A stretch of DNA of 64,000 nucleotides from Desertivirga xinjiangensis (GTDB taxonomy: Bacteria > Bacteroidota > Bacteroidia > Sphingobacteriales > Sphingobacteriaceae), in NCBI RefSeq assembly GCF_024436435.1, contig NZ_JAFMZP010000001.1, forward strand, positions 186,001 to 250,000, given 5' to 3'. The position numbers and the translations under genes are program-made. This document shows, piece after piece, positions 15,641 to 47,529 of this stretch (within the stretch, counting starts at the first letter, position 1; each line of letters opens with the position of its first letter). The notes beneath the pieces are model-generated. The model searched no databases, had not been told where the DNA came from, and saw only the letters and a program-made list of their open reading frames with translations.

Positions 15641-15689
15641 TGAACGAATTTATTTGATTGCTTTCGAGAAACGAGGAGGGCAGGGCCTG

Positions 15690-20855: not shown

Positions 20856-21010
20856 CTAGTGGCAAGAAAGTTTAATGTCTTTGGGCTGAGCGACTGCTAT
20901 TGACATCAATCTGCAAAGATATTGTACTTTAATAGTCCAGACTATGCTGTCCCCTGTCTCAAGGAATTAATGACCTGAAACGGGCTTAATACTCTTCCAT
21001 CAGTTAGTCA

Positions 21011-23859: not shown

Positions 23860-24991
23860 GCTTCGAAACTTTAAAGCATTGAAGGACTTGACATTGAATT
23901 TAAAAAAATTAAATGTCATTACAGGTATAAACGGCGTTGGGAAATCTTCTTTAATTCAAGCTATTTTATTATTAAGGCAAGCTTATCAAAGCAATCAGCT
24001 TAAATACGGAATATCCTTAGACGGCCCATACACGGGGAATCTGGGCAGCATTAAAGACATCGAGAACTCTCAATCTGAATGTTCGGAAATCGAAATTTCC
24101 ATTAATGATACTAGTTTTCTTTTCTCTACAAAAGATCAGAGAGGGGACACCGTATTAAAAGGAGAGATAGATTTTACTCCGTTATTGGATAATTCGTTAC
24201 TGTCGCAAGATCGATTTCAATATATAAGTGCTTCAAGAGTCTCCCCAGATGCGCATTTTGTGAAAAATACTTATGCAATTGAAAATAAAAATTTAGGTAA
24301 GAATGGTGAATTCGCAGTGTCATATATCTCTGAAGTCGGACAAAAGTCTTTCGATAAAGAACAAAATTCGAAATATCGACCTTCAATTTGCTTAGTGTTA
24401 GATAGTGAAGGAGATCCTTTACCGTTAGAAGCGCAAATTAATTATTGGCTTAATCATATTTCAGACAATGTCAGACTGAATATTTTAAAAACAGTTGCTA
24501 CAAAGTATGAATTGTACTTTGACTCTTTTAATGGTTTAAACTGGGACTCTTATTCAGCATCTAATTCTGCCTTCGGACTTACTTATTCTCTTCCTATTAT
24601 CACTTCGTTACTTATAGCACAACCAGGGGATATTGTGATCTTAGAGAACCCTGAAAGTGACTTGCATCCGCGAGCGCAGTCTAAGATTGGTGAACTGATA
24701 GCTAGATGCGCCAACTCAGGGGTGCAGATTATTGTTGAAACTCATAGTGATCATGTTTTAAACGGTATAAGGTTAGCCGTTTCAAATAAACCTTCATTAG
24801 TTTCACATGAAGACGTCAAAGTTTTTTATTTTTTTAAAGAACAGGCCTCAGTATTTACAAGTGTTGAGGAGATTTTAATTGACGCTAAAGGAAGAATGCC
24901 GATTAAGGAATTACGGGTAAGAGGCATTACGGGATTTTTCGATCAAATTGATCAAGACTATAGACAGCTATTTTTGAATCAAGATGCTTAA
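23843..24991 (+). CDS. AAA-family (DUF3696-like) ATPase
   Basis: A 382-residue SMC/OLD-like ATPase. It begins MIYKIKLRNFKALKDLTLNL with Walker A GINGVGKSS at residues 28-36. The second half has the ABC-type signature area and Walker B GDIVILENPESDLHPRAQ (about 262-280), then the switch segment IIVETHSDHVLNGIRL. This arrangement matches DUF3696/OLD-class ATPases of defence systems. No TOPRIM nuclease domain is fused. It overlaps both neighbours (17 bp upstream, 8 bp downstream), so the three genes form a tightly coupled operon and probably one complex. Confidence 0.9.
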   Translation: MIYKIKLRNFKALKDLTLNLKKLNVITGINGVGKSSLIQAILLLRQAYQSNQLKYGISLDGPYTGNLGSIKDIENSQSECSEIEISINDTSFLFSTKDQRGDTVLKGEIDFTPLLDNSLLSQDRFQYISASRVSPDAHFVKNTYAIENKNLGKNGEFAVSYISEVGQKSFDKEQNSKYRPSICLVLDSEGDPLPLEAQINYWLNHISDNVRLNILKTVATKYELYFDSFNGLNWDSYSASNSAFGLTYSLPIITSLLIAQPGDIVILENPESDLHPRAQSKIGELIARCANSGVQIIVETHSDHVLNGIRLAVSNKPSLVSHEDVKVFYFFKEQASVFTSVEEILIDAKGRMPIKELRVRGITGFFDQIDQDYRQLFLNQDA

Positions 24992-25958
24992 AACAAAAAT
25001 CTTCCTAGGAGCACAATTTCTAGAGAAGTTATTTAATGACTGTAAGTTGGAGCCTTTTTTTTTGAAATTTGAAGACTTTCATTTTACCTTACTTCAACAA
25101 AAAAACATCTTCGAAGTTGAGATCTTTTTGGAATTGGACCTCCTAAGCCTATACGACGATCTCGGGTTATATACAGTGAGATCAATTATCAGCAACTTTG
25201 TGGATGGAGACAGGCACTGTTTTCAGGTTTATAAAAGGAATGGTTCTTCAAAACACAATTATTACACAATATCTCAATTTGAAGAGTTTCCATTTAAATC
25301 AATTTCGTGTTCATCTACTATTGAGGCTTTTGAGATAGAAGTTTTAAAAAGCTGTAATGTTAAGCTGTTGTCCGATTCTGACCAGCCGATATCTATAATC
25401 AAAATCAATAGCTACGATCGTGAGGTGAATCCGATTTTAGCTTCAATTACGGCAGTACAGATTGATCTGTTATTCTTAGAAATATTTTTTGAGCACTATA
25501 TCAAAGGGGAGTTTCCAGACGATGACGAGTATGTAACTTTCCGTCAGAAGTATTTTGCATTTTATAACAAATTCGAGTGGGGACAGTGGAATCCCTCATT
25601 AGTTCCTGCTCCCGCACATGGTGTCATCAGTACTTGTTTAAAGACCAAGCATAAATTGAAGAAAGATGATGCGTATTTGTTAAAGTGGGGGTATATAATG
25701 GCAATTTTAAACGGGGCTAGATTCAACAGAGCATTGACTCGCGCTAATGAGCATGATAAAAGGGTTAACGATATCTTCCAAGCCGGGTTAAAGAAGAGAA
25801 ACTCTATTATTTTTTTTTCGACAGATAGTGAAAATGGCCAGTTGGAGATTTATGATTATAACGGAAATCATAATAATAAGGTTTATGGTTTAGAAAATGG
25901 TGTAATAACACAGAAACGTAATTATACTATAAAAGTGCCTGAAAGTAAGTGGTTGTGA
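24984..25958 (+). CDS. Unknown third protein of the DUF262/ATPase operon
   Basis: A 324-residue protein with no recognised family, signal peptide or membrane span. It has an aromatic- and Phe-rich N-terminus (LEPFFLKFEDFHFTLLQQK), a helical middle (AVQIDLLFLEIFFEHYIKGE) and a C-terminal part with conserved-looking ARFNRALTRANEHDKRVND and NSIIFFSTDS. The basic/acidic motif around RALTRANEHDKR might be catalytic, but this is a guess. Position after an OLD-like ATPase suggests it is the effector or partner of that ATPase, as in other ATPase-effector defence pairs. Confidence 0.75.
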   Translation: MLKTKIFLGAQFLEKLFNDCKLEPFFLKFEDFHFTLLQQKNIFEVEIFLELDLLSLYDDLGLYTVRSIISNFVDGDRHCFQVYKRNGSSKHNYYTISQFEEFPFKSISCSSTIEAFEIEVLKSCNVKLLSDSDQPISIIKINSYDREVNPILASITAVQIDLLFLEIFFEHYIKGEFPDDDEYVTFRQKYFAFYNKFEWGQWNPSLVPAPAHGVISTCLKTKHKLKKDDAYLLKWGYIMAILNGARFNRALTRANEHDKRVNDIFQAGLKKRNSIIFFSTDSENGQLEIYDYNGNHNNKVYGLENGVITQKRNYTIKVPESKWL

Positions 25959-26376: not shown

Positions 26377-27237
26377 ATGCCTAAATTTAGTTTTTCGGGC
26401 CACGACACCTTTCCATGTAGACAGCTTTGGTTGAAAAAGGGATACGATTTTATCAAAGCTAATAAGTCCTTTAAAAGTGAGGACGCTGTCATTGATCTTG
26501 GTGTGGGTAAAAACATGGTTTCAGCTATTAGATTTTGGATGAGGGCTATGGATATACTTACTCAGGAGGATGAATTGACCAACTTCGCAATCCATCTTCT
26601 AGATGATGAGGGGTGGGATCCGTACTTGGAAGATGAGATGAGCTTGTGGCTTTTACATTATAATCTTGTGAAGAAAGGGGTAGCTTCTTCCTATGGCCTA
26701 ATTTTCAATGAGCTCAGGAGAGAAAAAATAGAGTTCAATAAGAACACCTACTTCGGTTTTTTGAAACGGAAAGCAGAACAGCTTAAAGCTTTACAAGTAA
26801 ATGAAAAGACTATATTTGACGACTTTGGTGTTCTTATTAAGATGTATATAAGAAGTGATGGCAAGGTAAAAGAAGATATATTTCAAGGGCTATTCACAGA
26901 ATTAAACCTTATAAAGCCTTTAGGAAAAAGGGGAGAAGAATTATATTCCATAGAAAACAAAGAAAGAGATGAACTACCGGAAGCTCTGTTTTTGTACATC
27001 ATTCTTGATAATTGTGCAGCAGATTCGTCATCAATCAGTATCTCAACTATTGAGCAAGATCACAATAATGTAACGTCGGTTCTCGCAGTATCCCGAACTT
27101 CTTTAGCTAGTAGGCTTGAGCAAATATCTAAAAAGTACGATTGCATTAATTATAGTGATCACGCTGGAATAAAAGAATTACAAATCAAGCGGCAAATTAC
27201 CCCTCTAGAAATCTTAAATCATTACTATGCTAATTAA
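26377..27237 (+). CDS. sspB: SspB-like DUF4007 protein (phosphorothioation nickase)
   Basis: A 286-residue protein opening with the DUF4007 signature FSGHDTFPCRQLWLKKGYDF and continuing VIDLGVGKNMVSAIRFWMRA. In the Ssp single-strand phosphorothioation pathway, SspB is the DUF4007 protein that nicks DNA so sulfur can be inserted. The next gene overlaps by 11 bp and encodes the large ATPase, and the third is the PAPS-reductase-like SspD, the order expected of sspB-sspC-sspD. Catalytic residues cannot be assigned by eye. The symbol rests on domain plus gene order rather than alignment. Confidence 0.85.
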   Translation: MPKFSFSGHDTFPCRQLWLKKGYDFIKANKSFKSEDAVIDLGVGKNMVSAIRFWMRAMDILTQEDELTNFAIHLLDDEGWDPYLEDEMSLWLLHYNLVKKGVASSYGLIFNELRREKIEFNKNTYFGFLKRKAEQLKALQVNEKTIFDDFGVLIKMYIRSDGKVKEDIFQGLFTELNLIKPLGKRGEELYSIENKERDELPEALFLYIILDNCAADSSSISISTIEQDHNNVTSVLAVSRTSLASRLEQISKKYDCINYSDHAGIKELQIKRQITPLEILNHYYAN

Positions 27238-30200
27238 GAATGTTGCCTCTATCAATATCGTCAGAGATATTGATAAAAATATAGAGTACATTCCGACGCC
27301 AAATTCTCGTGTCATCGCAAATCAAATTGTTAATGATTTCAGGGAAGGCGTGAGATCTTTTGGAATTATTGGTTCTTATGGAACCGGGAAGTCTGCTTTC
27401 ATTTTAGCGTTACAAAGACATTTGTCTGGATTATCTAATTACTTTCAATTAGATTTATTAGAAGATGCTAATGTAAAGTTCATAAATATTTTAGGGGAGT
27501 TTCGCTCTATAAAGGAAGCCCTCGCTGATCATTTCGATATTGAAGATTATGGGATCCTACCCCAAAAAATCTTTTCTCAAATATATAATGAATACTATGA
27601 TCTAGGCGGCGACAAAAAATTACTTATACTTTTTATTGATGAATTTGGAAAGTTTTTAGAATATGCCTTTAAGCATTCGGCAGAAAAGGAGCTGTATTTT
27701 GTTCAGCAGCTAGCGGAATTTGTAAACAATTCAGATAATAATATTCTGTTAATAACTGCTGTTCATCAAAGCTTTGATGCTTACTCTTATAATCTAAATA
27801 TCCGTCAACAAAATGAGTGGATAAAAGTTAAAGGCAGGTTCAGAGAATTAACTTTCAATGAACCTGTCGAACAACTCCTGTTTTTAGCCGCTCAACAACT
27901 TTCTAAGGCGAAAAGGGTAGGAAAAAGTAATGAGATAGAAGTTGGGTTAAATCTCTTCAAGAGTACGAAAGCCTTCACTCATTTATCCACAGACCTTCAA
28001 AATGTTGCGGAGAATTTGTACCCGTTGGATCTACTTTCTGCTCATATTTTGACTCATGCTCTGCAGAAATATGGGCAGAATGAAAGGTCACTATTCTCTT
28101 TCCTTCAGTCTACTGATCCTACCAGCCTCAACGAGCATTCGAGACGGAATGATAGATTTTACAATTTATCACATGTTTATGATTACTTGATTTTTAATTT
28201 CTACTCCTACTTGTACTTCTATGGGAATCCGGATCTTGTGGCTTGGAGAGCAATAAAAGCCGCACTTGACCTGGTAGAGAGAAAAGTGGAGAACAGAATC
28301 GAAGATTACTCTTCAATTGTTAAAACAGTAGGGCTACTTAATATATTTTCGAGTCCTGGAGCTTTATTGGACAGGCATTTTTTGCAACAATACTGTAAGA
28401 TTTGTTTAGGTATAGAGGATGCTCCCGATCTCATTGCTAGTCTTGAAAGTACTTATAAAGTAATCCTGTATCGCAATTATTCAACGCGATTTATTGTTAC
28501 AGAGGGAACTGATCTAGATATACCTTTGGCGTTGTCGAAGGCGTCAGAGAAAGTTGATGCAGTAAACGATGTGACTACGCTTTTAAACAGATATTACAAA
28601 TTACCTCCTGTTGTTGCAAAAGAGGCAACCTATAAATCAGGAACTCCACGTCTCTTTGAATTTGTTATATCTGAGTACCCTAAAAGCATAGTGGCAGAAG
28701 GCGAGACGGATGGGTACATCAATTTAATTTTCAATGATAACTTGGCACCTGAGGAACTTAAGAATTTTTCAGATGGACAAAAAGAAGCTATTTTGTTTGG
28801 ATTATATAAAAATTCAAATGCCATTAAGGAGTTACTTTTTGAAATCGAGAAAACTAAAAAAGTAATTGATGAAAATATAGATGACAAAGTCGCAATTAAA
28901 GAGCTTAGCGAGATATTGCTACATCAACAAAACTTACTAAATCATAAAATTCTAACTAATCTCTATAACTCTAAGGATGTTCAATGGGTTTTTAAGGGCC
29001 AAGTACAGGAACGAGTTGTAAACAAAAGAACGTTCAATAAATTACTGTCAGAAATATGTTTGAGGATTTATGACAAAGCTCCTAGATTCAACAATGAACT
29101 GATTAATAAGCATAAACTTTCTGGTTCTATTCATAGTGCTAAACGTGGTTATTTAAAAGCACTAGTAGAGAACTGGGATAAGAAGGACCTCGGATTTGCC
29201 CCTGACAAATTTCCACCAGAAAAAACTATAGCTCTCGCTCTCCTTGAGGAAAATGGGATTCGGCTATACGATAATATCTCTGATCACATTATAGTTGATC
29301 CTAAGAACCAATTTCATTTCATTTGGGATGCTTCAGAAGATTTTTTGAATACAGCAAAAGTCTCCAAGAGAAAGGTCTCTGAATTGAAAAGTATACTATC
29401 TCAAAGACCGTACAAGCTCAAACAGGGATTGATAGACTTTTGGATACCGACATTTTTATTTATTAGAAGAAATGAATTTGCCTTGTTTTGTGATGATAGA
29501 TATATTCCCCAGCTATCGTATGAAGTTCTAGAACTAATAATTAAAAATCCAGAGGAGTACGAGGTAAAAGCATTCGATATAATTGGAGTTAAATTGAATC
29601 TCTTCAATAGCTACCGAACATTTCTAAATCAATCTTCGGAAATTAAGCCAGGAAACCAAAGCTTTATCGAAACGATTAAGCCCTTTTTAAGCTTTTATCG
29701 CCATTTGCCGGAATATTCTAAAAATACTAATAGATTAAGCAAAGAGGCTAAACAAGTTCGTGACGTTATCTCCAAAGCTAAAGATCCGGAACAAACTTTT
29801 TTCGAAGCTTTTCCCTCTGCACTAGGCTTTGACTTAAACCAACTTTTGGAAAACGAAAGTAAATTACATCAGTATACAGAAAAGTTGCAAGATGCAGTTC
29901 GAGAATTACGGAGTGCCTACGACGAGCTGTTAGCCAGAATTGAAGAATTCATCTGTTCTGAAATACTCGGAGAGGAAATGGAATTCCTCGCTTATAAATC
30001 AAGGCTTAGAGAAAGATTTCAAGGTATAAAAAAGCATTTATTATTGCCTAGACAAAAACGTTTCCTACAGAGATTAGAATCAGACCTAGATGACAAAAGA
30101 GCATGGCTTAATTCTATAATGCAGCCTGTAACTGGAAATACCTTAGACAAATTCTCCGACGAAGAGGAAATAAGGCTTTATGACCAGTTCGAATTGTTAA

Positions 30201-30445
30201 TTCTTGAACTAGACAGTCTGACCTCTCTATCTCAAACAAATTTTTCAATAGAAAAGGAAGATTTATTAAGTTTAGAAATCAGTTCTTTTGATGCAGGCCT
30301 TTGTAAAAGGATAATTAGGCTTCCTAAAAGCAGAAGCCAAGAAGTGGAGAAAGTGGAGGTGGAATTACGAAGAACACTTTCAAATAATACTATAACTGAT
30401 TTGGCCGCTTTATCAAAGATACTAAAAGAGTTGATGGAGAAATGA
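27227..30445 (+). CDS. sspC: SspC-like large P-loop ATPase
   Basis: A 1072-residue ATPase. Walker A is GSYGTGKS at residues 49-56, Walker B LLILFIDEF with the catalytic DE at about 138-139, and a sensor-like segment LLITAVHQSF follows. The AAA-type core occupies the first 300 residues; the rest is mostly helical, with a coiled-coil-like stretch near the C-terminus (ESKLHQYTEKLQDAVRELRS). The N-terminal core also resembles BREX BrxC ATPases. Overlaps of 11 bp with sspB and 4 bp (ATGA) with sspD show a coupled operon. Role: energy-dependent step in phosphorothioate modification. Confidence 0.85.
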   Translation: MLIKNVASINIVRDIDKNIEYIPTPNSRVIANQIVNDFREGVRSFGIIGSYGTGKSAFILALQRHLSGLSNYFQLDLLEDANVKFINILGEFRSIKEALADHFDIEDYGILPQKIFSQIYNEYYDLGGDKKLLILFIDEFGKFLEYAFKHSAEKELYFVQQLAEFVNNSDNNILLITAVHQSFDAYSYNLNIRQQNEWIKVKGRFRELTFNEPVEQLLFLAAQQLSKAKRVGKSNEIEVGLNLFKSTKAFTHLSTDLQNVAENLYPLDLLSAHILTHALQKYGQNERSLFSFLQSTDPTSLNEHSRRNDRFYNLSHVYDYLIFNFYSYLYFYGNPDLVAWRAIKAALDLVERKVENRIEDYSSIVKTVGLLNIFSSPGALLDRHFLQQYCKICLGIEDAPDLIASLESTYKVILYRNYSTRFIVTEGTDLDIPLALSKASEKVDAVNDVTTLLNRYYKLPPVVAKEATYKSGTPRLFEFVISEYPKSIVAEGETDGYINLIFNDNLAPEELKNFSDGQKEAILFGLYKNSNAIKELLFEIEKTKKVIDENIDDKVAIKELSEILLHQQNLLNHKILTNLYNSKDVQWVFKGQVQERVVNKRTFNKLLSEICLRIYDKAPRFNNELINKHKLSGSIHSAKRGYLKALVENWDKKDLGFAPDKFPPEKTIALALLEENGIRLYDNISDHIIVDPKNQFHFIWDASEDFLNTAKVSKRKVSELKSILSQRPYKLKQGLIDFWIPTFLFIRRNEFALFCDDRYIPQLSYEVLELIIKNPEEYEVKAFDIIGVKLNLFNSYRTFLNQSSEIKPGNQSFIETIKPFLSFYRHLPEYSKNTNRLSKEAKQVRDVISKAKDPEQTFFEAFPSALGFDLNQLLENESKLHQYTEKLQDAVRELRSAYDELLARIEEFICSEILGEEMEFLAYKSRLRERFQGIKKHLLLPRQKRFLQRLESDLDDKRAWLNSIMQPVTGNTLDKFSDEEEIRLYDQFELLILELDSLTSLSQTNFSIEKEDLLSLEISSFDAGLCKRIIRLPKSRSQEVEKVEVELRRTLSNNTITDLAALSKILKELMEK

Positions 30446-31545
30446 AGAAAGTAAGACATGTACTCGGTATATCCGGAGGTAAGGATAGTGCAGCACTAGC
30501 TATTTATATGAAGGACAACTATCCTGACCTTGATATTGAATATTATACTTCAGATACAGGTAAGGAGCTAGATGCAACGTATAAACTGATCGACAACCTT
30601 GAAGTTTACCTTGGCAAGAAAATTATACGTTTGCAAGCCTTCAATGGTAGTCATAAGAATCCTTTTGACCATAAGCTAAAAACCCTAGGTGGCTTTTTAC
30701 CCTCTCCTGTGAATAGATGGTGTACCAAGAGCTTGAAGCTTGACACATTTGAAAAGTTTGTAGGGGACGATTCTGTCATATCTTATGTAGGAATTCGAGG
30801 AGACGAAGATAGAGAAGGTTATATTTCGACTAAGTCCAATATTCAATCAATTTTCCCATTCCGGCAGAATATTTGGAGTGAAGATGTTATCAATAAGGTT
30901 TTGATCGAACCAAATCGAATCAAAGTTGGCGAAATCTATGATAGATTAATTCCAACTTTTGAGGGCGATTACTTTCGTGAAATTCTTGGTACACCTTTAA
31001 CGGCTAATTTTAATCAAAAGCAAAAACTTCATTCTTTGCTTCGCACTAATACAAAGTTATTTAACCGACTCGTCTTTGAGTTTCTTAAAACTACATCATA
31101 TCCTCTTGCTACAGAGCCTGGTTTTTCATTGATTGATGACGATCGGATCTTAAAAATAGATGATATCTTCAGCATTTTAGAACAAAGTGGGGTAGGTATT
31201 CCAGAGTATTATAATAAGATAGAATTTCAAGTTAATGACAAGACAGGTAGTTATTGTAGAAGCCGTTCAGGATGTTATTTTTGTTTCTATCAACAAAAAA
31301 TAGAGTGGGTATGGTTACTAGAGCAACATCCTGAGCTTTTTAATCGAGCAATGGAATATGAACGGGGAGATTATACCTGGAACCAAGATGAAACTTTAGA
31401 AGAGTTGAGTCGGCCAGAAAGAGTGAAACAAATTAAAGAGGACTATCTAGTTCGTCAATCTCGCACTAGCGATTCAAATTCACCGTTCATGATTGATAAC
31501 ATACTTGATGCTGAAGAGGAAGGTTGTGCTTCTTGCTTTATTTAG
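30442..31545 (+). CDS. sspD: SspD/DndC-like sulfurtransferase (PAPS reductase fold)
   Basis: A 367-residue PP-loop ATP pyrophosphatase: SGGKDSAAL with the loop at residues 11-16. Four Cys are placed to bind an iron-sulfur cluster, Cys94 (NRWCTKS) and Cys272, Cys278, Cys281 (CRSRSGCYFC), the pattern of DndC/SspD. The enzyme adenylates the DNA backbone and passes sulfur to it. The first step, a cysteine desulfurase (SspA/DndA), is not encoded here. The gene ends facing the convergent sspH gene, 131 bp away; an imperfect stem there (about 31551-31592) may end transcription. Confidence 0.9.
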   Translation: MKKVRHVLGISGGKDSAALAIYMKDNYPDLDIEYYTSDTGKELDATYKLIDNLEVYLGKKIIRLQAFNGSHKNPFDHKLKTLGGFLPSPVNRWCTKSLKLDTFEKFVGDDSVISYVGIRGDEDREGYISTKSNIQSIFPFRQNIWSEDVINKVLIEPNRIKVGEIYDRLIPTFEGDYFREILGTPLTANFNQKQKLHSLLRTNTKLFNRLVFEFLKTTSYPLATEPGFSLIDDDRILKIDDIFSILEQSGVGIPEYYNKIEFQVNDKTGSYCRSRSGCYFCFYQQKIEWVWLLEQHPELFNRAMEYERGDYTWNQDETLEELSRPERVKQIKEDYLVRQSRTSDSNSPFMIDNILDAEEEGCASCFI

Positions 31546-31676
31546 CCTTCGGAATAGTGAAGCTATCGTCCAAAAACGAACTTCATTGTTCCTTTTCGGA
31601 GAGATTTACCACATATTTAGGACCTGACTTATTCCCCCTCTGGACCTTGTTTAATTTGTAATAAAATAAGCCAGTA

Positions 31677-34600
31677 CTATATTGTCGTTAAATCCTCCTT
31701 GCAAAGTTCCCAGAATGCTTTGTCTTTTATTTTAATTGGAGGGCTTCCTGCAAGATTAACAATGCTATAATGCTTGTCTAAACTTTTAATCACTCCTGTT
31801 AAAGCGTCCCTATCATTTCTGTTCGGTAAATCAAATAATGTGGCAATTTCCTTGTCTTTAATCTCATTCACTCTATGGATGATCCAAGTAAGAATATAGT
31901 TAGAATACTCATTTTCTGCAGTTATAAAATGATTTAAAAATTGAGTTGACAAAATAGTTCCCACACCATACTCTCTTCCTTCTTTTAATATCTTTCTGAG
32001 TGATTCAAAATCTTTACTTAAGAAATTGTCCGCCTCGTCTACAAGGACAATTTTATTAATTTGTCTTAAGTCACCATCAATCTTGCTATGCCCGTGGATC
32101 TGCATTTGAGAATAGAATTGATCAAGCGTAATGGCAACTATTAAGTTTTGCAAATCCGTGCTGTACCCATTTAAATTAATTATTGTTACGCCATCTATAA
32201 GTTCAAATAATGGCTTTGTTTTTGCTCCATCTGCCTCGAAAATTTCATAATCATAAATCTCGGTTAGCGCGGCGTGCAAGCTATCTATTTTCGGATTTTC
32301 ACTATCTAGATAAATTTCACATACTTCATTAATGGTTGGCGCTGTTCTTACCCAGGTTTGGGGTTCATCTTTTATAATACCAGCATTGGCATAAGCTTGC
32401 ATGATAATGCCTCTTAATGCTGTCTTTTGTATATTTCCTAAAGTAAAGGCTTTTGAAATTGTCTCTTGTAATGTCCTAGTCGTATGTAAAGGCAGCAGTG
32501 GTTTAGGCGTCTTCCCAATAGCTAAGGCAAGGGGATTATACGGTAATTTATGTAATTCGTAGATATTCGCGTTTGTAGCATTCACAAAGTCGTCTTTAAT
32601 GTAATCTCCCTTGTAATCAAAGATTAGAATGCCAAGCTTTTTTGAATCGACATTTTGATGAGTATTCTTTATTAATTGAGTAATAAGAGACTTTGTGAAT
32701 TGAGTTTTTCCTGTTCCCATAGTACCTATGATTCCAGTGTTCATATGCATAACCTTATTAGTTGAAGTTGGAAACCACTCGATAGGCTTGCCATTGCTAG
32801 CTTGGCTTCCAAACAATACTTTTAAGGGAGAAGTTAAATAGGTTTGTAGAGGGTCTTCTACATTTTCTTTTGTAAGGACTTCTTCACCAGGAATATCCTC
32901 GATGTCTGAAGGATATTCATTCTTTACCTCAATTTCATCCTCCCGCTCTAAAGCAAGAAGAAAGTCAGTGTCTTCAAGGATGTTTCGGACAATCGAAGTA
33001 GCATATTTATGCTCCAAAAGGTCATTAATAGTGATGCCAATTGCATTCTGATCAGAATATCGCAATTTCAACTTCTCAACGGACTGCACCAAATCATTTA
33101 ATCCGTCAGACTCAAACAAGTTTATTTGTAAGTAATTCTCTCTAAAGGCTATATCTCGCTTGCCGTAAGATGAATTCTCTTTAAATGATAGCACACCGAA
33201 ATTTCCGATATAAGAATTTAAGGTCCCAATAGAAAATGAATCATTTAAAAGCTTGCCTCGCCACTGTTCAATATCTTCCCACCTAGATGAGTAATCCGGC
33301 CAAACATTATAAAGTGCCAATTTTTGCGCTGCAGTTAAAATCAGTTTTGAGAAATAGTTTCTGTAGATCTTTCCGCTTAAGCCTGGTTGGCAAAGAGTTT
33401 TTATTATTAACTCAAAAGAATTTTTCCCCTGAATAACCCCTTTCTTAATAGTCTTAGACGCGTTATTCCCAATCTTTACTTCAACTGGGTAGAAATATAA
33501 CTGTAGAACCCCTTCGATTTCTTCAAGACCAACCATTAGTAAATCGTCGCTAAACTGCCCAGTCTTATTTAGATTCTTCACTGAAAACAACCCTGACTTT
33601 TGTTTCAATCCAGCTCCCCCAGTCACCCTAAGAATTTCTTCTAAAGACAGTACCACCCAAGTTATTTTTGGATGATCAAGAATTGCTAACAACTCTTTTA
33701 CTGCTGATAGAATGCTTATTTTCTCTTTTTCTACCTTTTCGTAAGGGTTCTGCGATCCAAGCTTCAACAGCCAATAACCGTTTATTGCATTGAACATATC
33801 AATAATAGGCTTAATTGCACCATCAATGTTCTCGACTTTCGATTTCAGATAGTCTTTAAGAATGTATTCGTACTGCTCCCACTTACTTGTGACCGTTATA
33901 GAATCAAAACCACTAGATGTACTGTACTGATCTGTGTAGTGTATTATAACAACATCTTTATCACTTTTGAAAAAGCTTAAATCAACACGAGGATTAATAA
34001 AAGTAACCCATTGTGAACTTGAGTAAACCTCCTGCAAGTTTTGCTTGACTTTACTGTTTATTACTGAGGCAAAAGCATAATGATCTTTATAAATTTGTGA
34101 GGTTCCTTCTATATGGGCGAGAGAATTAAGCTTTCTAGACAGTTGCAGCAAAATATCCCCATCAAATTCCTCTAAGTATTTAATGCCAAAGCCTGTGCGG
34201 TAATTTCCTTGACTATAAATAGACGGCAGGTCAGATAAAATACCTCCTAGTGATACCCCAGACGCTATTTCGCTAGTGTTGTTATCGGATTTCTCCACAT
34301 CACTTTCGTCAAATTGATGGAAAGTAATATGAGCATATTCATATTTTGTTTCATTTATACTTGAGTCAGTTTTAAGGAAAAACTGAACTTTTTCATGATA
34401 AAGTTTCAAGAAGTCCTCAACTTCAAGTTTTCCCCGCAACTGCTCCAGGTTTATGCCAAACTCGTTTTTAATGATTTCGGCACTTTCGAATTTAGAAAAT
34501 TGCTCAAAGCAAGTAACGAAACTTTCTGAGCCATAAATGTTGATGGAAATTGGGAAAACGTCATTCGGATTCTTAGAGTTATTTGAAAGTTCTTTTGTAG

Positions 34601-36992
34601 CCGAACTAAAATATTCAAAAATCCCCTGCAGAGTTTCTCTCCCGTCTCCAATATTAATTAAGTTTAAGCGTATTGGAGCATTTTTTTCAATGTATAAGAA
34701 TGAGAAGTGTTTCACAAACTCCCTGATTTTAGAAGACATCATCTCAGGGACATTTTTTCGATTTATCGACTGACCTTCAACCGTAGCATTAACATAATAC
34801 AACCATTCGGGAGATTGATCTTGATCAATGCCTATAAAATACTCTTTCTCGCCACCTCCATCATTTATAAAAGGTAGGAGATTGATAGGGGAAAATTTCT
34901 TTGCAAGCTCTCCGTTTTCATTATTCCAAAATTGTTCGTCTAAGGAATCTAATAATGTTAATTGGTATGCTACTAAAAGTGGATGTAAGGGGGAAAGTTT
35001 TAGCCGCTCTAAATTTCCTTGTTCCCTAATTGTGCCAATCCGTAACAGAGACTTTTCGGCTCTTGAAAGGGAGCCATTTTGTTCTATGTTGTTAAGATGA
35101 AATAGATAAATTTTTATATATTTCCGATATAACGTCCTGAGTTCTCCAGCAACATAGATAGTACTAGGTAAAATTCTATAACTTCCTTTAATTGTCGACC
35201 GGAAATAGGAAATGATATTTTTATATGCCTCATCTAAGTCGGGAGGTAAAATACCTGTTCTATCTTCTAGCTTTCCATGTCCAGTTATGACAATCTCAGA
35301 ATATCCTAGATCAATTATTTCTTCTTCTAATCTTAGATTTTCCCTGAAATCTCCAGTCGGGAAATAGACTGTATTAAAATGCTCGAGAGTAATAATTTCT
35401 CTATCAGGACGCTTTTCATCTGTCCTTTTAAGGTAATAGAAGGATTTTTTATTTATATTCTTTTTACTCCATACAGTTTGCCCCCCTATTGGCGCAGGTT
35501 TAATGCCAGACATTACGAATCTGGCAAAGATTGAAGCTGACTTGTAATTTAGGGTAAAAGGAAGGGATAGGCTGTCCGTTACATCGACTTCTCCTAATTG
35601 GAGCTTTAAAGATTGCTCTGAAGATAACTCATAGGCATTACTTGGATAGAATAAAAATGGCTCCGTTTCTAATCCATCCTCATTGAAGAGTAAATAATCA
35701 TCAGAATAAAACTCGATTCCAAATTTGCCACTTTGCTGAATCTGAACTATATACTTTGTTTTGACGGGTCTTAAAATAGTCTCTTCGAAAGGTACTACAA
35801 GAACTTTAAAAACGTAAGTGTTTGTTTTACCGTCCTTCTTTTCTGTGTATCCAAGCCTATAGGTGTTGAAGTTAGTCGGAGTCTGTATTGGAAGTGTGAT
35901 ATGTAGCGACTTAGACTCTTCTTCAATAGTTGCTAAAACTGGCCCCGAGAAAGCATCAAGGGAAGGTCTCTTTTTAAATTTTAAATCAACTGAAAGTTCA
36001 TGTTGTAACTTAGGATTAAAAATGATAATATTTCGAATTTTCGCTTTGCTCGCACTGTTCCCTTCTTCTTTATCCCAGATAATATTTTCTTCACTAGTGA
36101 CTTCGTCAGTATTAGGTATATACTCATTAAACTTAATATTGTCTCTATTTTCTTCATACTTTAATATTTGATCAAAAGATACATTTTGCCAGTTTTCTCT
36201 ATCTGAAAGGGCTTTTTGACCACTTTTATCAAAATGTCTTTCTAGGTAATCATCCAAAGTTCCTAGTTCCTCGTTCTGAGAAATCTCCGAAAAGTACTTG
36301 CGATTTTTAAGAACCCTTTGCCGTATTTCTCTCTTTGGTAGTTCTTCATTGTGAACTTTTTCATCAAAAAATACACCTAGCAGGTTATAATCTTCTTTAA
36401 CCAATTTTTTAGTTATTAAAATAACTAAGTATTTTTTCAGATCGAAAACATTTGAGTTTTCAATTTGGTAGTCACTCGATTCTGATTTTATCAGTTCTCG
36501 CAGAAATTCTTTTTGAGTTGAGGTAAACTCAGGCTCTTTTGAAAACTCTGCAATAATGTTTTTACTAACCGTTTCATAGTGCAAAGGCATATCCCTACTG
36601 GCTAGGCTCTCTGCTCCTTTGTTTATACTTTCAAGTTCAGATGAGTGAATAAAAAAAATGGCAGAATTACTCTCGAACTGTGATACCTTTTGAAAATTAT
36701 TCCTAAGACCGGTAAGTAGGTCTTCGTTATTATGGCTAGCAATAATAACTTTTGTGTTTTTTATTTTTAGTGCATAGGTATCATAATCATTATATAGATA
36801 GGAGATAACTTCAATACCTTCGTCTTTGTACGCCGCTTCAGCAAAGGTTTTTAAACAACTATATAATTGATGGACATCTGATTCCCTCTCAAACCTTATT
36901 TGATACTTACTCCCATCTTTCAGAGTGCCGGCTGTGAAAAAATCTAATATCAATTTAGATAAATAGAAATATAATCTGTTCTCTTGTTCCAT
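31677..36992 (-). CDS. sspH: SspH/DptH-like HerA-type ATPase
   Basis: A 1771-residue protein, the usual size for DptH. The HerA/FtsK-like motor lies at the C-terminus: Walker A GTMGTGKTQF near residue 1420, and Walker B KIVLVDEADNF near 1650, followed by GREYGVGTILSTQFLNHF. The first 1300 residues are unassigned. DptH-type proteins belong to the restriction arm that damages DNA lacking phosphorothioate. Its ATG overlaps the sspG stop as TAATG, so translation is coupled. Codon use is AT-rich like the rest of the island. Confidence 0.88.
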   Translation of the reverse strand: MEQENRLYFYLSKLILDFFTAGTLKDGSKYQIRFERESDVHQLYSCLKTFAEAAYKDEGIEVISYLYNDYDTYALKIKNTKVIIASHNNEDLLTGLRNNFQKVSQFESNSAIFFIHSSELESINKGAESLASRDMPLHYETVSKNIIAEFSKEPEFTSTQKEFLRELIKSESSDYQIENSNVFDLKKYLVILITKKLVKEDYNLLGVFFDEKVHNEELPKREIRQRVLKNRKYFSEISQNEELGTLDDYLERHFDKSGQKALSDRENWQNVSFDQILKYEENRDNIKFNEYIPNTDEVTSEENIIWDKEEGNSASKAKIRNIIIFNPKLQHELSVDLKFKKRPSLDAFSGPVLATIEEESKSLHITLPIQTPTNFNTYRLGYTEKKDGKTNTYVFKVLVVPFEETILRPVKTKYIVQIQQSGKFGIEFYSDDYLLFNEDGLETEPFLFYPSNAYELSSEQSLKLQLGEVDVTDSLSLPFTLNYKSASIFARFVMSGIKPAPIGGQTVWSKKNINKKSFYYLKRTDEKRPDREIITLEHFNTVYFPTGDFRENLRLEEEIIDLGYSEIVITGHGKLEDRTGILPPDLDEAYKNIISYFRSTIKGSYRILPSTIYVAGELRTLYRKYIKIYLFHLNNIEQNGSLSRAEKSLLRIGTIREQGNLERLKLSPLHPLLVAYQLTLLDSLDEQFWNNENGELAKKFSPINLLPFINDGGGEKEYFIGIDQDQSPEWLYYVNATVEGQSINRKNVPEMMSSKIREFVKHFSFLYIEKNAPIRLNLINIGDGRETLQGIFEYFSSATKELSNNSKNPNDVFPISINIYGSESFVTCFEQFSKFESAEIIKNEFGINLEQLRGKLEVEDFLKLYHEKVQFFLKTDSSINETKYEYAHITFHQFDESDVEKSDNNTSEIASGVSLGGILSDLPSIYSQGNYRTGFGIKYLEEFDGDILLQLSRKLNSLAHIEGTSQIYKDHYAFASVINSKVKQNLQEVYSSSQWVTFINPRVDLSFFKSDKDVVIIHYTDQYSTSSGFDSITVTSKWEQYEYILKDYLKSKVENIDGAIKPIIDMFNAINGYWLLKLGSQNPYEKVEKEKISILSAVKELLAILDHPKITWVVLSLEEILRVTGGAGLKQKSGLFSVKNLNKTGQFSDDLLMVGLEEIEGVLQLYFYPVEVKIGNNASKTIKKGVIQGKNSFELIIKTLCQPGLSGKIYRNYFSKLILTAAQKLALYNVWPDYSSRWEDIEQWRGKLLNDSFSIGTLNSYIGNFGVLSFKENSSYGKRDIAFRENYLQINLFESDGLNDLVQSVEKLKLRYSDQNAIGITINDLLEHKYATSIVRNILEDTDFLLALEREDEIEVKNEYPSDIEDIPGEEVLTKENVEDPLQTYLTSPLKVLFGSQASNGKPIEWFPTSTNKVMHMNTGIIGTMGTGKTQFTKSLITQLIKNTHQNVDSKKLGILIFDYKGDYIKDDFVNATNANIYELHKLPYNPLALAIGKTPKPLLPLHTTRTLQETISKAFTLGNIQKTALRGIIMQAYANAGIIKDEPQTWVRTAPTINEVCEIYLDSENPKIDSLHAALTEIYDYEIFEADGAKTKPLFELIDGVTIINLNGYSTDLQNLIVAITLDQFYSQMQIHGHSKIDGDLRQINKIVLVDEADNFLSKDFESLRKILKEGREYGVGTILSTQFLNHFITAENEYSNYILTWIIHRVNEIKDKEIATLFDLPNRNDRDALTGVIKSLDKHYSIVNLAGSPPIKIKDKAFWELCKEDLTTI

Positions 36993-38461
36993 TACCTATT
37001 ATATAAGCGAGTTACATATTGGGCATCCCCGCTGTCGCTCTTTTTTTCTAAAATGTTTATTTTCTCAAAGAAATTTACTACTTCTCTTTTGGATTGATTA
37101 TCAAGTAATATTCCTCTTCTTTCTAGTTGTAGCCATAAGTGACTCGTCAATATCTTGTCTTTTCCTGAACTCATTATACTCATTTCAGTAAAAAGAAGAA
37201 GTCCCTCTTTATCTAATTTTAAGGTCCCTCCAAGACTACCTCTCGATTTATAGTAATTTAATTTGACGAACTCTTTATACCAAGCATTGAAAGAGCGATA
37301 TGCTGCTCTCCTAGTGTAGGATTTCTCGAATTGATATTTTATCATCGAGTACAGCTTATGTATTAAAGAAGTGGAGTGGTAATAGGAATAAGTTTTCCCT
37401 TCAGGTATTTTATATTTGGCATCGAAATCGGACCAGTCTGTGTCTTTAATGCTGTCTCGATACCTGTTAATAATTTTATTGACAACTACAGTTAATCCCT
37501 TTTCTGATTCTTCATCCATTTGCTGAATGTCAGTCAGAATTTCGCTATAAGTAAAACATTTCTTTAGAAACCGGCCCTCAGATGATTGAATTGTATGTAA
37601 TAACTCCAAACAATTCGCATGGGCAAACATAGGTTCAACTAACTTTTCCAGCTTTCGCCATCCATTATCAATCGCCAACCTTGATTTAGATAGCTTTTCC
37701 CAATCAAGGGAAAAATAGAATAAACCAGGTCTGGGATTATCACTAAATAAATTGCTCAACTGGGCTATCAACTTTAATATGTACTGGAAATAATAGAACT
37801 TTATAAGAGTAGAAACCTTCTCAGTAAATAAGGCTTTGTTTTGGATCAAATTACTTAGGTCTTCTTTAAAAAGATCTCGGATTTCCTTCACTAAGGGGCC
37901 TTCGTAATATCCATTTCTATTATAAGTTGATACTCCTTTATTTGTAATGTTTTTAAACTTATCCAGAACAAGTTGATACAAGATGTTATTTGGAGCATTA
38001 TCAGATATCGTATTTTCTATTATTTTCTCAACCTCATCATCTATTAACAAATTGCAAATAAAGTTTTCTAAGTTTTTTAGCTTCGCATTTGGCCATTGAA
38101 ATCCCAAATGCGGTAAAACCTGAAATGAGAATAAGATTAAATGTTCATTTTTATCAAAAAGTAATTCCGCAATAATGTCTTCAAGGTCTTCCTTATTCGG
38201 TCCAGCATCTACTTCGTCTACAATTAGTTGGATCAATTGATCTTTAGGCAACAAAGAGGTTTGCTCCATTCCAAGACATGAGCGATGAAACTTTCCCGAA
38301 ATGCCGTAAAAATTGATTAGGTCTAAAGATGACTCTGGAAGTTCTTTTAATTCGGTTGCAAATGGAAATAGTTTAATTAAATTACCTTTATTATGCTGGA
38401 ACCCCTTTTTTGAGCCATCGAAAGAGGATGAATAGTCTTGTTCGTCTATTGAAAAAAGCAT
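36992..38461 (-). CDS. sspG: SspG/DptG-like protein
   Basis: A 489-residue protein with no visible enzymatic motif; the N-terminus reads LFSIDEQDYSSSFDGSKKGF. The C-terminal part is helical with basic patches (KSYTRRAAYRSFNAWYKEFV). The assignment rests on position, size and coupling: 3 bp after sspF and overlapping sspH by one base, exactly as in dptF-dptG-dptH operons. In those systems G is needed for restriction but has no known enzyme activity. Confidence 0.8.
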   Translation of the reverse strand: MLFSIDEQDYSSSFDGSKKGFQHNKGNLIKLFPFATELKELPESSLDLINFYGISGKFHRSCLGMEQTSLLPKDQLIQLIVDEVDAGPNKEDLEDIIAELLFDKNEHLILFSFQVLPHLGFQWPNAKLKNLENFICNLLIDDEVEKIIENTISDNAPNNILYQLVLDKFKNITNKGVSTYNRNGYYEGPLVKEIRDLFKEDLSNLIQNKALFTEKVSTLIKFYYFQYILKLIAQLSNLFSDNPRPGLFYFSLDWEKLSKSRLAIDNGWRKLEKLVEPMFAHANCLELLHTIQSSEGRFLKKCFTYSEILTDIQQMDEESEKGLTVVVNKIINRYRDSIKDTDWSDFDAKYKIPEGKTYSYYHSTSLIHKLYSMIKYQFEKSYTRRAAYRSFNAWYKEFVKLNYYKSRGSLGGTLKLDKEGLLLFTEMSIMSSGKDKILTSHLWLQLERRGILLDNQSKREVVNFFEKINILEKKSDSGDAQYVTRLYNR

Positions 38462-38464
38462 TTT

Positions 38465-40192
38465 CTAATTAGTTGTGAATTCGTATCCAAAAGCATTTTT
38501 AAAAGAAAGCTGATATCTCTTTCTTATACTTCCATTAATTTTTTCAATATTAATGCTCTTTACGTCTTTTGATGCCTCAGAAATGATAGTATCTACAAAC
38601 TTCTGAAAGTCAATGTGTTCATCTCTATCAAACTTGTTTGGGTGATATCCATGTACTACTTTCTTCAGCAGCTTATATAAATTAAAATCCAATGTGAATG
38701 AATTATTTACTGATCCTGCAGTAATGTCGACAATTATTGAGGTGTCAAAGTCATACAATTCTTTGCATTCCCTCGAAGCTAATACTTTGATGGAGGTAGG
38801 AGAAATCAGGATGTTTTGGCTAATATTATAGCTCAATTGATGTTTCCCTATTGGGACTGTAATTTCATTCTCAGACCGTGCGTTTCCATTCCATGTATGA
38901 ATGGCCTTAATAGCTATTTTGTATAAAGTCTTTAATGTCGAAACGTTACCAGTGTGGTATGCATATAAGTACCGAGCGTAGGCATAAAAATCTTCCAAGT
39001 CGAGGTTAAACTCATTAAGATTGTTCATATAAAGAGATCTAACGAAAGTTTTCACTAACTCCCGTTTTTCTGCTGAATCAAAACTATCACTACGCCAAAC
39101 ATTAAGATCTATGTTTTGAGACTTAAAATAACTAATTGTATATTCCGAAGAACTTAATTGAAAAATGAGGTTGTCAAGTTTTTCACTCCGTAAACTAAGT
39201 GGATCCAACTTCTTTATCGCGGATAGCAGGGAGGAGCGTCCCTCCGAGTCAAACAACTTGTTATAAAGTGAGTGCTTCAGTGAAAAATAAAAGTCGCTAT
39301 AGTCTTTTAAGGACTTAAGACTCTCGCTCGATTGTTGTTGATAAGGATAGGGTACAATTATGTCGTAAATAAAGTTGAGCAAGTCCCTTATTGAAACTAT
39401 TAATTTAAATTTAACAATTGCGTATATAATCAAATTTATCAGAGCTTTCTGTACATCTTTTTTAGAAAGCTGTAGGTAATTGAACCTGATAACGCAATTG
39501 TCTCTATAAGGATGATCTGAGTAAAAATCGTTAAATGCTTTGTAGAAAGGATTGCTGTTGTCCAATTCTGTGATTTTTTCAAACAAAGTTTCTAGCAAGG
39601 TCGAGGCGGCTCCCTCTTTGTTTAAGCTAAATAGCTTGTAGTCAGCTAAATTGATAAATTGAAAAAAACTTTCTTCGTAGTAATGATGGGCCACCGCTCG
39701 GTTTTCTAATATTCCCTTGGCTCTTACAAACAATGAAAGCTGGCTAAAGGAGACCGATGTTTCATTTAAAAACCTAGATAATACACCCAAATTGATTGCA
39801 ACAATTTTGGTGACCTTTGAGGAGTTTTTCATCTGCAACGCATCATCACTGAAGGGCTTTAAAAAATCCTCCAGCTCCTCAATCCAACTCTTACTGACAT
39901 AATTACTTTCAGTGGCGTCATTTCTAACTAATACTGAACCCATTAGGTCTGCATACTTGTTGAACAACTTTGCTAACATGTGAGATTTCCCATCGCCCAC
40001 GTTTCCAGAGATCAGAATCAATCTAGGTTGCTCACTTTTGACTGAAGAGATGACAATGCTCTCTAGTACCAGATCTACAGGTCGGTCAACATGTAGATAA
40101 TTTTTAAAATCATCGAAACTATTATGAGTTCCATCAACAACCGCTTCTCGTGAGGAAATACTCAACTTATCAAGTAACTCTTTAAACATCAA
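38465..40192 (-). CDS. sspF: SspF/DptF-like ATPase
   Basis: A 575-residue protein with the DptF hallmark near the N-terminus: SSREAVVDG, FKNYLHVDRPVD and a Walker A loop GNVGDGKS at residues 63-70 followed by His. It is the first gene of the sspF-sspG-sspH operon. In the known cassette SspFGH damages non-modified DNA and blocks phage replication. Start MMFKELLDKL at 40192; the second Met is equally usable. A 243-bp gap separates it from the regulator gene upstream, so it may have its own promoter. Confidence 0.85.
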   Translation of the reverse strand: MMFKELLDKLSISSREAVVDGTHNSFDDFKNYLHVDRPVDLVLESIVISSVKSEQPRLILISGNVGDGKSHMLAKLFNKYADLMGSVLVRNDATESNYVSKSWIEELEDFLKPFSDDALQMKNSSKVTKIVAINLGVLSRFLNETSVSFSQLSLFVRAKGILENRAVAHHYYEESFFQFINLADYKLFSLNKEGAASTLLETLFEKITELDNSNPFYKAFNDFYSDHPYRDNCVIRFNYLQLSKKDVQKALINLIIYAIVKFKLIVSIRDLLNFIYDIIVPYPYQQQSSESLKSLKDYSDFYFSLKHSLYNKLFDSEGRSSLLSAIKKLDPLSLRSEKLDNLIFQLSSSEYTISYFKSQNIDLNVWRSDSFDSAEKRELVKTFVRSLYMNNLNEFNLDLEDFYAYARYLYAYHTGNVSTLKTLYKIAIKAIHTWNGNARSENEITVPIGKHQLSYNISQNILISPTSIKVLASRECKELYDFDTSIIVDITAGSVNNSFTLDFNLYKLLKKVVHGYHPNKFDRDEHIDFQKFVDTIISEASKDVKSINIEKINGSIRKRYQLSFKNAFGYEFTTN

Positions 40193-40435: not shown

Positions 40436-41104
40436 TTACACTAGATCAAGAGGTTTGAAATAATAACACCCATCTTTGATTTCTTGAACTAACAGCGCTT
40501 TTCGCTTTCCCTTTATCTGCCTAATCAGTATCGATAAGCTTTTTTGAAGATCAATAGGAGAGAAGTCCGGAATTGACTTCTTGATTTTAAGATAAATCTG
40601 CAGGGCACGACGACGCTCAAAAAAGTAGCCCGTCTCTACAAGATTTAGCACTTCTAAGCGCACATCCTTATTTTCCTTTTTCCGGATTCCTTTTACAATT
40701 TTTTTAGTCCAAACTATGGGTTTTGATATTGAGCCATCAATCTTTTCGACTATATGCGAGTAGATAATCTTGTCGTCATAAACTGTTTTTGATGGCTTAT
40801 GTAATCGAACGGTTTCTCCTGGCGCTATATCATTTGGAAATAAATCCCGGTGGTTGATGTTCAATATCGTTGGAATGACGTCCAGCTGGTCGTTTTTGAA
40901 TTTGTCTTTTTCCGTGGGGTTAAGCAGGTCAAAGAAGTATTTATTCCGTTTCCCAAGTAAAAAGGAAAATTCCTCATCATCGATACCTGCCTGGGGTAAT
41001 AACTCAAATACCCGCTTGACAATCTCATAGTCCATTCTGGACATTACTACAAGAGATGTCTTAATACGTTTTTTTTTCTTTTTGGGCGTTGCAGTCTCCG
41101 GCAT
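40436..41104 (-). CDS. Lysine-rich regulator-like protein beside sspFGH
   Basis: A 222-residue protein with a very basic N-terminus (ATPKKKKKRIKTSLVV) and no recognised domain. The C-terminal third has DVRLEVLNLVETGYFFERRR, closely patterned on the XRE protein's DVRLVMEGLIEADYFKECKS, and both continue with helices ending in an aromatic residue near the C-terminus. The two proteins thus probably share a winged-helix-like module. It lies 18 bp after the XRE gene and upstream of sspF, suggesting joint regulation of the restriction arm. Regulatory role is inferred. Confidence 0.6.
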   Translation of the reverse strand: MPETATPKKKKKRIKTSLVVMSRMDYEIVKRVFELLPQAGIDDEEFSFLLGKRNKYFFDLLNPTEKDKFKNDQLDVIPTILNINHRDLFPNDIAPGETVRLHKPSKTVYDDKIIYSHIVEKIDGSISKPIVWTKKIVKGIRKKENKDVRLEVLNLVETGYFFERRRALQIYLKIKKSIPDFSPIDLQKSLSILIRQIKGKRKALLVQEIKDGCYYFKPLDLV

Positions 41105-41122
41105 AAGTACTCAATGCCAAAT

Positions 41123-41605
41123 TTATTGTTTTGCCTGATAACCTTCTTCAGTTCGGATGAGTATTTTCTCACTTACCAATATGTTGAGGATGGAGCGAAC
41201 AGTGTTTGCTTCTTCCTCATTACCGAGTTTTAGGTATCTGAATAAAGTTTCAGCGCTCTTGCATTCTTTGAAATAGTCGGCTTCAATCAATCCTTCCATC
41301 ACAAGTCTTACATCTGGCTCGTTGCTGAAGTTTATCACTCGTTTTTCTACCTTGGTACCATCGCTTTTTATGGCACCATCGGGTGGCAATAAATCATGGA
41401 TTTGACAACCTAGGGCTTCGGCGAGATTTGCCCATTCATCAGCAGGATAGATATTTTGTTGGGAGCTATCTTCAATCTTTGAGACATAAGTTTCTCCACG
41501 CCTCATATTGATAGATAGCTGCCTTGCTGATAGTCCCTTAATTAGTCTCCTAACTTTGGCTTTGTTAATAATAAATAGTGATAGAGAGGCGATTTTTTCC
41601 GGCAT
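41123..41605 (-). CDS. XRE-family regulator of the sspFGH arm
   Basis: A 160-residue protein. Residues about 15-75 form an XRE helix-turn-helix (RRLIKGLSARQLSINMRRGE, TYVSKIEDSSQQNIYP, WANLAEALGCQIHDLLPP). The C-terminal half (about 95-155, VRLVMEGLIEADYFKECKSA, VRSILNILVSEKILIRTEEG) looks like a winged helix. It is the first gene of the regulator pair preceding sspFGH, and a palindrome at 41686-41712 just upstream is a possible own operator. It probably holds down the toxic restriction genes. Confidence 0.85.
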   Translation of the reverse strand: MPEKIASLSLFIINKAKVRRLIKGLSARQLSINMRRGETYVSKIEDSSQQNIYPADEWANLAEALGCQIHDLLPPDGAIKSDGTKVEKRVINFSNEPDVRLVMEGLIEADYFKECKSAETLFRYLKLGNEEEANTVRSILNILVSEKILIRTEEGYQAKQ

Positions 41606-42184: not shown

Positions 42185-42796
42185 ATGGATGTCAGATTAT
42201 GGCTTTCGGGGAAGCTATTGCCTTTTCCGAATGTAGATGAATTAAAGTTAAGAGATCAGAATTATAAGCTTAATCTCCCGAAAGAGCTCTCAGCAATTAG
42301 AACTGCTTTAGGGATTATCATAAATATCTTGCTTGTTGTGGCTATTGCCGTAGGCAAGGAGATATCAACTGAGTCGGCGACAGTCCAGAAGATTTCAAAA
42401 TTTCACTTTTACAAATTAGGAAGTATCTATACTCGGACTACTTTCCAATCCGACACAATCAGCAATGTGGATACTGCCAGCTTCATCCTTGTTCGCACCT
42501 CCGGTGCCGATAAGATCCAGGTCGTTGGAGCAATAGCACAGCTCGATTTCGAACCCTTTGGCTGCCGGGTATACAATGGCTCGGTCAGCCAGTTCCTGCA
42601 AGGGCTGAAAGCTTCATACCTGAAGGACTCCCGGTTGACCCTGATCGATGGAACCGGTTATACCGGCCAGATCGACCTGCTGCTGGATACTCCCTTAAAC
42701 ACCATCGAAGAACTCAATAAAACTCTGGCTCCTTATGATCTCCGCTTTATCTCCAAAGAGTTGCCCAGAGTCAAATCCACCCCCAAAGAAAACTAA
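42185..42796 (+). CDS. Membrane-anchored DUF3738-like protein
   Basis: A 203-residue protein with one membrane span at about 40-58 (ALGIIINILLVVAIAVG). The C-terminal 75 residues (GSVSQFLQGLKASYLKDSRL, LIDGTGYTGQIDLLLDTPLN, TIEELNKTLAPYDLRFISKE) fit the end of a DUF3738/TIGR03435-type domain. The next gene, 6 bp downstream, carries a second, longer version. Both precede a SusC/SusD pair, so a role in envelope processing or sensing for that locus is inferred. The N-terminal 40 residues are unusual and the start could be internal. Confidence 0.7.
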   Translation: MDVRLWLSGKLLPFPNVDELKLRDQNYKLNLPKELSAIRTALGIIINILLVVAIAVGKEISTESATVQKISKFHFYKLGSIYTRTTFQSDTISNVDTASFILVRTSGADKIQVVGAIAQLDFEPFGCRVYNGSVSQFLQGLKASYLKDSRLTLIDGTGYTGQIDLLLDTPLNTIEELNKTLAPYDLRFISKELPRVKSTPKEN

Positions 42797-42802
42797 GAAA
42801 AC

Positions 42803-44173: not shown

Positions 44174-44238
44174 TCAGTAGAAACCATCAAATCATCATCA
44201 GGTAAATCAGAAAAATCACAAGAAATCAACCCTCAACA

Positions 44239-47496: not shown

Positions 47497-47529
47497 AGAA
47501 CAGGAAAGACATAAAGAAAAGACAATACG

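Follow-up and report, generated by a model that had tools for sequence, protein, structure and literature searches.

The window (the whole stretch of 64,000 nucleotides that was analysed, from Desertivirga xinjiangensis) carried two three-gene operons facing each other. The genes sspB, sspC and sspD lay on the plus strand and converged on a dptF-dptG-dptH operon on the minus strand. The features of the locus were as follows.

26377..27237, plus strand: sspB, DUF4007 protein, predicted DNA-recognising nickase of the Ssp writer (Pfam, PADLOC, solved relatives)
27227..30445, plus strand: sspC, ATPase (PADLOC SspC, Walker motifs)
30442..31545, plus strand: sspD, PP-loop sulfurtransferase (PADLOC SspD, alignment)
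31546..31676, no strand: convergent gap of 131 bp with a stem-loop, possible terminator for both operons (sequence and fold)
31677..36992, minus strand: dptH/dndH, nuclease with a C-terminal HerA-type ATPase (PADLOC DndH, TIGR03237, 7es4)
36992..38461, minus strand: dptG/dndG, predicted DNA-binding subunit (TIGR03236, 7exx)
38465..40192, minus strand: dptF/dndF, P-loop protein (TIGR03238, PADLOC DndF)
40436..41605, minus strand: two small genes upstream of dptF, possible regulators (weak HTH_31)

When the translations were read, all six ssp and dpt genes were intact, full-length open reading frames with intact motifs, and PADLOC, NCBIfam and Pfam profiles gave each of them an unambiguous name. 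The start of sspC overlapped sspB by 11 bases and the start of sspD overlapped sspC by 4 bases, indicating that sspB-sspC-sspD are coupled; dptF, dptG and dptH were packed as closely. The gap between sspD and dptH held a 12-bp stem (GGAATAGTGAAG...CTTCATTGTTCC) followed by TTTT, which could be a terminator of both operons, with a weak fold (z-score only -1.6). One of the small genes upstream of dptF encoded a 222-aa protein assigned to no family and the other a 160-aa protein with a helix-turn-helix (HTH_31, 18.6 bits, below the cut-off). Both are possible regulators; in the relatives searched, dptF had neither of them as a neighbour. A search with the Bacteroidota promoter pattern found no site close to either operon, and sigma-70 sites near the operons were no more frequent than expected by chance.

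Directly upstream of sspB, a three-gene operon (22267-25958) encoded an NsnA-like DUF262 protein, an NsnB-like AAA ATPase and a 324-aa protein, and is a candidate for a separate defence system. An HNH-endonuclease-like gene of ~0.9 kb was present in two inverted copies (14735-15643 and 21008-21899; 88-95% identical), which were 5.4 to 7 kb apart and adjoined the defence region. The defence region, with 35% G+C, was also adjoined by a SusC/SusD-type operon (42185-48894) of 50-58% G+C; a 456-aa gene of the latter region had a paralogue elsewhere in the genome that was 85% identical.

In known systems, the Ssp mark is a single-strand phosphorothioate in 5'-CCA-3'. The coupled plus-strand operon corresponded to an Ssp writer in all of its genes. 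SspB matched Pfam PF13182 (DUF4007) with an E-value of 7e-79, PADLOC SspB with 339 bits and the solved SspB structures 6juf/6lb9 with an E-value of 4e-23; sspB was the sole DUF4007 gene of the genome. SspC, with a Walker A motif (GSYGTGKS) and a Walker B motif (LLILFIDEF) in its translation, scored 1402 bits against PADLOC SspC and only 209 bits against BrxC. SspD scored 302 bits against PADLOC SspD, and its PP-loop SGGKDS, Cys94 and the pairs Cys278/281 and Cys362/365 were invariant in 11 of 11 aligned SspD proteins. An insert of ~95 aa separated the PP-loop domain from the GCxFC motif in the SspD of this group and was absent from shorter SspD proteins. The original prediction of a DUF4007 protein, a Walker ATPase and a PP-loop enzyme in one coupled operon was therefore borne out by the profiles. 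The kinship of SspC and BrxC, to which it also pointed, was already published (PMC12839542).

The minus-strand operon matched DptFGH/DndFGH. DptH scored 1708 bits over its whole length against PADLOC DndH and 541 bits against TIGR03237, which is below the cut-off of that profile (621), and it matched the solved DptH C-terminal domain (7es4) with an E-value of 5e-127. Its nuclease residues D1150...E1171-x-K1173 and its HerA-type Walker A motif GTMGTGKT occupied invariant columns of the alignment. DptG scored 132 bits against TIGR03236 (cut-off 20) and matched the solved DptG 7exx (E 1e-17), and DptF, with the motif GNVGDGKSH, scored 220 bits against TIGR03238 (cut-off 50). The convergent operon of DptF (DGKSH), DptG and a HerA-type DptH was thus found as predicted, and every gene was matched in the proposed profile search with SspB/SspC/SspD and DptF/G/H.

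The same arm had also been called SspFGH, and this identity did not survive. SspFGH and DndFGH share no sequence homology according to the paper that defined SspFGH (PMC8092258). A bona fide sspBCD-sspFGH locus of the same class (L202 of genome G249; SspF 694 bits) served as our reference. Neither DptG nor DptH of the window matched SspG or SspH of this reference at E 10, and the profile comparison of DptH with SspH gave a probability of 12%. DptF matched the reference SspF weakly, with an hhalign probability of 93%, indicating that the two are remote relatives; its PADLOC scores were 422 bits for DndF and 26 bits for SspF. Because SspG and SspH were unmatched and DptF was nearer to DndF, the cutter is of the Dnd type, and a canonical SspFGH identity was ruled out for G and H. 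Judged by its protein sequences, the locus is a hybrid of an Ssp writer (SspBCD) and a Dnd cutter (DptFGH).

The hybrid shared parts with four known systems. As in SspABCD-SspFGH of Vibrio anguillarum FF-93, there is an SspBCD writer, IscS as the likely donor and an adjacent three-gene restriction operon, but the restriction genes here are DptFGH of Dnd ancestry and F alone is remotely similar. DndABCDE-DndFGH (Salmonella Cerro 87, E. coli B7A) shares DptF, DptG and DptH at full length, with the solved relatives 7es4 and 7exx; however, the writer here is SspBCD. The writer is of the same kind as in SspABCD-SspE, but no DUF262-HNH SspE followed sspD, and the upstream DUF262 protein (22267-23859) matched the NsnA profile. 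SspB, SspC and SspD are related to the BrxP and BrxC parts of BREX type 4, whereas SspB and SspD are separate proteins here, and neither the PglZ nor the BrxL that accompany BrxC and BrxP in that system was matched in the scan of ten ORFs (22.3-41.1 kb).

The locus probably operates as a hybrid phosphorothioate restriction-modification system, in which an Ssp writer marks the DNA and a Dnd-type cutter reads it. By homology, SspB and SspC would choose and nick the site, and SspD would receive sulfur from a housekeeping cysteine desulfurase, for which IscS is the likeliest candidate, and put it into one strand of host DNA. The DptFGH complex would travel along DNA and make nicks, except when its ATPase was restrained by the sulfur mark; it would cut phage or plasmid DNA that lacks the mark and spare host DNA. 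In the Dnd system, restriction is held back by double-strand phosphorothioate, and we infer that DptFGH here reads a mark on one strand. In published work, SspBCD acting with IscS puts its mark on one strand (PMC8092258). DndFGH is described as a complex of 2:2:1 composition that moves along DNA and introduces nicks (PMC11662687; PMC10470545); the phosphorothioate mark is reported to repress its ATPase and so spare self DNA, and the complex is reported to be toxic to cells without phosphorothioate (PMC11662687), so that an unpartnered copy would be costly. It had been proposed that the two arms, as separate convergent operons, allow protection and restriction to be timed separately. Two coupled operons were indeed present, but the timing argument is not specific to this locus because Dnd loci commonly have separate operons as well.

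The pairing recurred in relatives. Among 401 Sphingobacteriaceae genomes (family assigned by the organism names given for matching loci), 13 had DptG, and in 13 of 13 it adjoined a phosphorothioate writer, which was DndC in 9 and SspBCD in 4; the latter loci were convergent in 4 of 4 cases. A second, independent sample covered 380 genomes from another order. Of these, 6 carried DptG, 2 of them with SspBCD in the same convergent layout; Flammeovirga sp. SJP92 was one of these two second-family genomes. When one genome per species was scanned with the DptH alignment (71 loci), 51 loci had a Dnd writer, 3 had an Ssp writer and 17 had no writer in view; several of the 17 were at contig ends and some had full flanks. 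Writer and DptFGH were linked within ~12 kb in 4 of 4 genomes holding both, for which random placement gave a chance of ~5e-10 under a crude model that takes no account of defence genes clustering in islands. The sspD and dptH genes of Pedobacter sp. MC2016-15 were separated by three other genes, so the SspBCD of that strain may serve another effector. No DptH relative was confirmed on viral contigs. SspC relatives were found on 67 plasmid records, and no Ssp-DptFGH pair occurred among the plasmid records examined. A Sinorhizobium fredii GR64 plasmid (L189, 2596-13450) carried an F-G-H-like operon whose last protein had a DndH-like ATPase; this operon adjoined a cytosine methyltransferase and vsr, not a phosphorothioate writer.

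Ssp-linked DptG, DptF and DptH each formed one clade, with SH-aLRT values of 96, 96 and 99, respectively. These clades were nested in Bacteroidota Dnd-linked rows, requiring a single partner change, and their members were not found beside any Dnd writer. In the SspC tree, the DptFGH-linked rows needed five separate origins, and a single clade was rejected (p-AU 1e-9). The Flammeovirga row had a long branch, which leaves its exact position unsure, and the other DptFGH-linked rows fell in separate well-supported groups. Since the SspC partners came from several lineages, one F-G-H clade has come beside SspBCD repeatedly. As the simplest account, the trees suggest that a Dnd writer was exchanged once for an Ssp writer, after which the cutter was paired anew, repeatedly, with SspBCD of different lineages. 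Such re-pairing is the pattern predicted by functional dependence on the Ssp mark, and is indirect evidence for it. Clade-specific residues were considered as a sign of an altered reader, and no changed site was found; fixed differences between Ssp- and Dnd-linked proteins amounted to about one per subunit, namely T183A in F, F139L in G and I1154V in H. The reader may need little change, or the five sequences may be too few for one to show.

These results bear on the strongest alternative, in which the two operons merely share a defence island as unrelated neighbours. The marks made by SspBCD would then serve another purpose or an effector elsewhere, and DptFGH would act alone by sensing other features of invading DNA. 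DndFGH was found in 1,798 taxa and all eight dnd genes in only 316, which led to the view that the cutter, often decoupled from Dnd writers, may act as a standalone system (PMC10853773). The writerless DptH loci with full flanks, the placement of writer and cutter in separate operons and the NsnA-NsnB candidate operon just upstream are also consistent with mere proximity. However, every DptG of the family sample adjoined a writer, the close linkage would be unlikely by chance under the crude model that ignores islands, and the Ssp-linked F-G-H clade met SspBCD of several lineages and no Dnd writer. We therefore regard unrelated neighbours as unlikely.

No desulfurase gene sspA was found in the locus, as originally predicted; among the relatives' loci fetched, ten had an sspA-family gene, nearly always directly before sspB. 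The proposed genome search for sspA/iscS recovered a housekeeping IscS over its cut-off (TIGR02006, 655 bits; cut-off 643), and SufS was present inside a suf operon, showing that a sulfur donor is available. The earlier claim that sulfur must come from IscS was right as to the presence of IscS and too strong in its 'must', because SufS is also in the genome. By homology, the donor to SspD would be a housekeeping cysteine desulfurase, most probably IscS. The lack of sspA, which some relatives have directly before sspB, could instead mark a decayed or half-lost system with one arm alone still working. This is very improbable, given that none of the six frames is interrupted or shortened, that their motifs are intact, that IscS is present in the genome and that the FF-93 Ssp system also works with iscS (PMC8092258). 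Scarcely credible is the canonical SspABCD-SspFGH system of the original prediction, which has the identical F-G-H order beside SspBCD and the remote DptF-SspF kinship in its favour, but is contradicted by the SspF and DndF scores, the unmatched G and H and the low probability for H.

A Dnd writer elsewhere in the genome was rejected, since no DndC (best match 123 bits; cut-off 290) and no DndD (best 24 bits) exceeded the cut-off; by these two genes there was no complete Dnd system. The DndC-like match was a PP-loop gene of 400 aa on contig 1 (145614-146603; L011/L012), located among prophage-like genes and adjoining terminase-like and cytosine methyltransferase-like genes. Two other genomes of the genus had neither SspC nor DptG.

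Approximately 28 sspBCD loci in the sample of 401 Sphingobacteriaceae genomes were without DptG. In many of these (L076-L105), the genes directly after sspD encoded DUF262 with SIR2, DUF262 with a kinase, or a nucleoside deoxyribosyltransferase-like protein; others encoded PLD, HATPase and helicase together, HATPase proteins, or a DndB-like protein. The DUF262-SIR2 arrangement was repeated on a Hymenobacter plasmid. In one locus (L089, 12112-19076), sspBCD was followed by genes for an SspC-like protein of 1550 aa and for a protein of 772 aa that matched PglZ weakly; this may be a mixture of Ssp and BREX. With such varied genes after sspD, SspBCD looks like a writer common to exchangeable effectors, the roles of which were read from their domains.

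The writer, the cutter, their separate operons and the SspC-BrxC relation were already known. According to a review (PMC12707154), clusters for modification and for restriction are sometimes exchangeable, and no report of sspBCD and dndFGH as one system was found in the literature searched outside subscription journals. Loci of sspBCD without SspE or SspFGH numbered 2,211 of 2,678 (83.9% as reported; PMC8092258). The recurrent SspBCD-DptFGH pairing offers a candidate partner for such orphan sspBCD loci and for orphan DndFGH, and it opens to experiment the question of whether sulfur on one strand is enough for DndFGH or both strands must carry it. If the hybrid reading is true, Ssp and Dnd sulfur marks would be readable by one cutter. 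We see about even chances for the broader reading, in which Dnd cutters can be re-wired to the Ssp mark, with DptFGH reading backbone sulfur and not the double-strand Dnd site, and SspBCD is a general writer with many exchangeable effectors. If SspBCD is such a general writer, that would account for much of the reported 84% of sspBCD loci in which no known partner is present.
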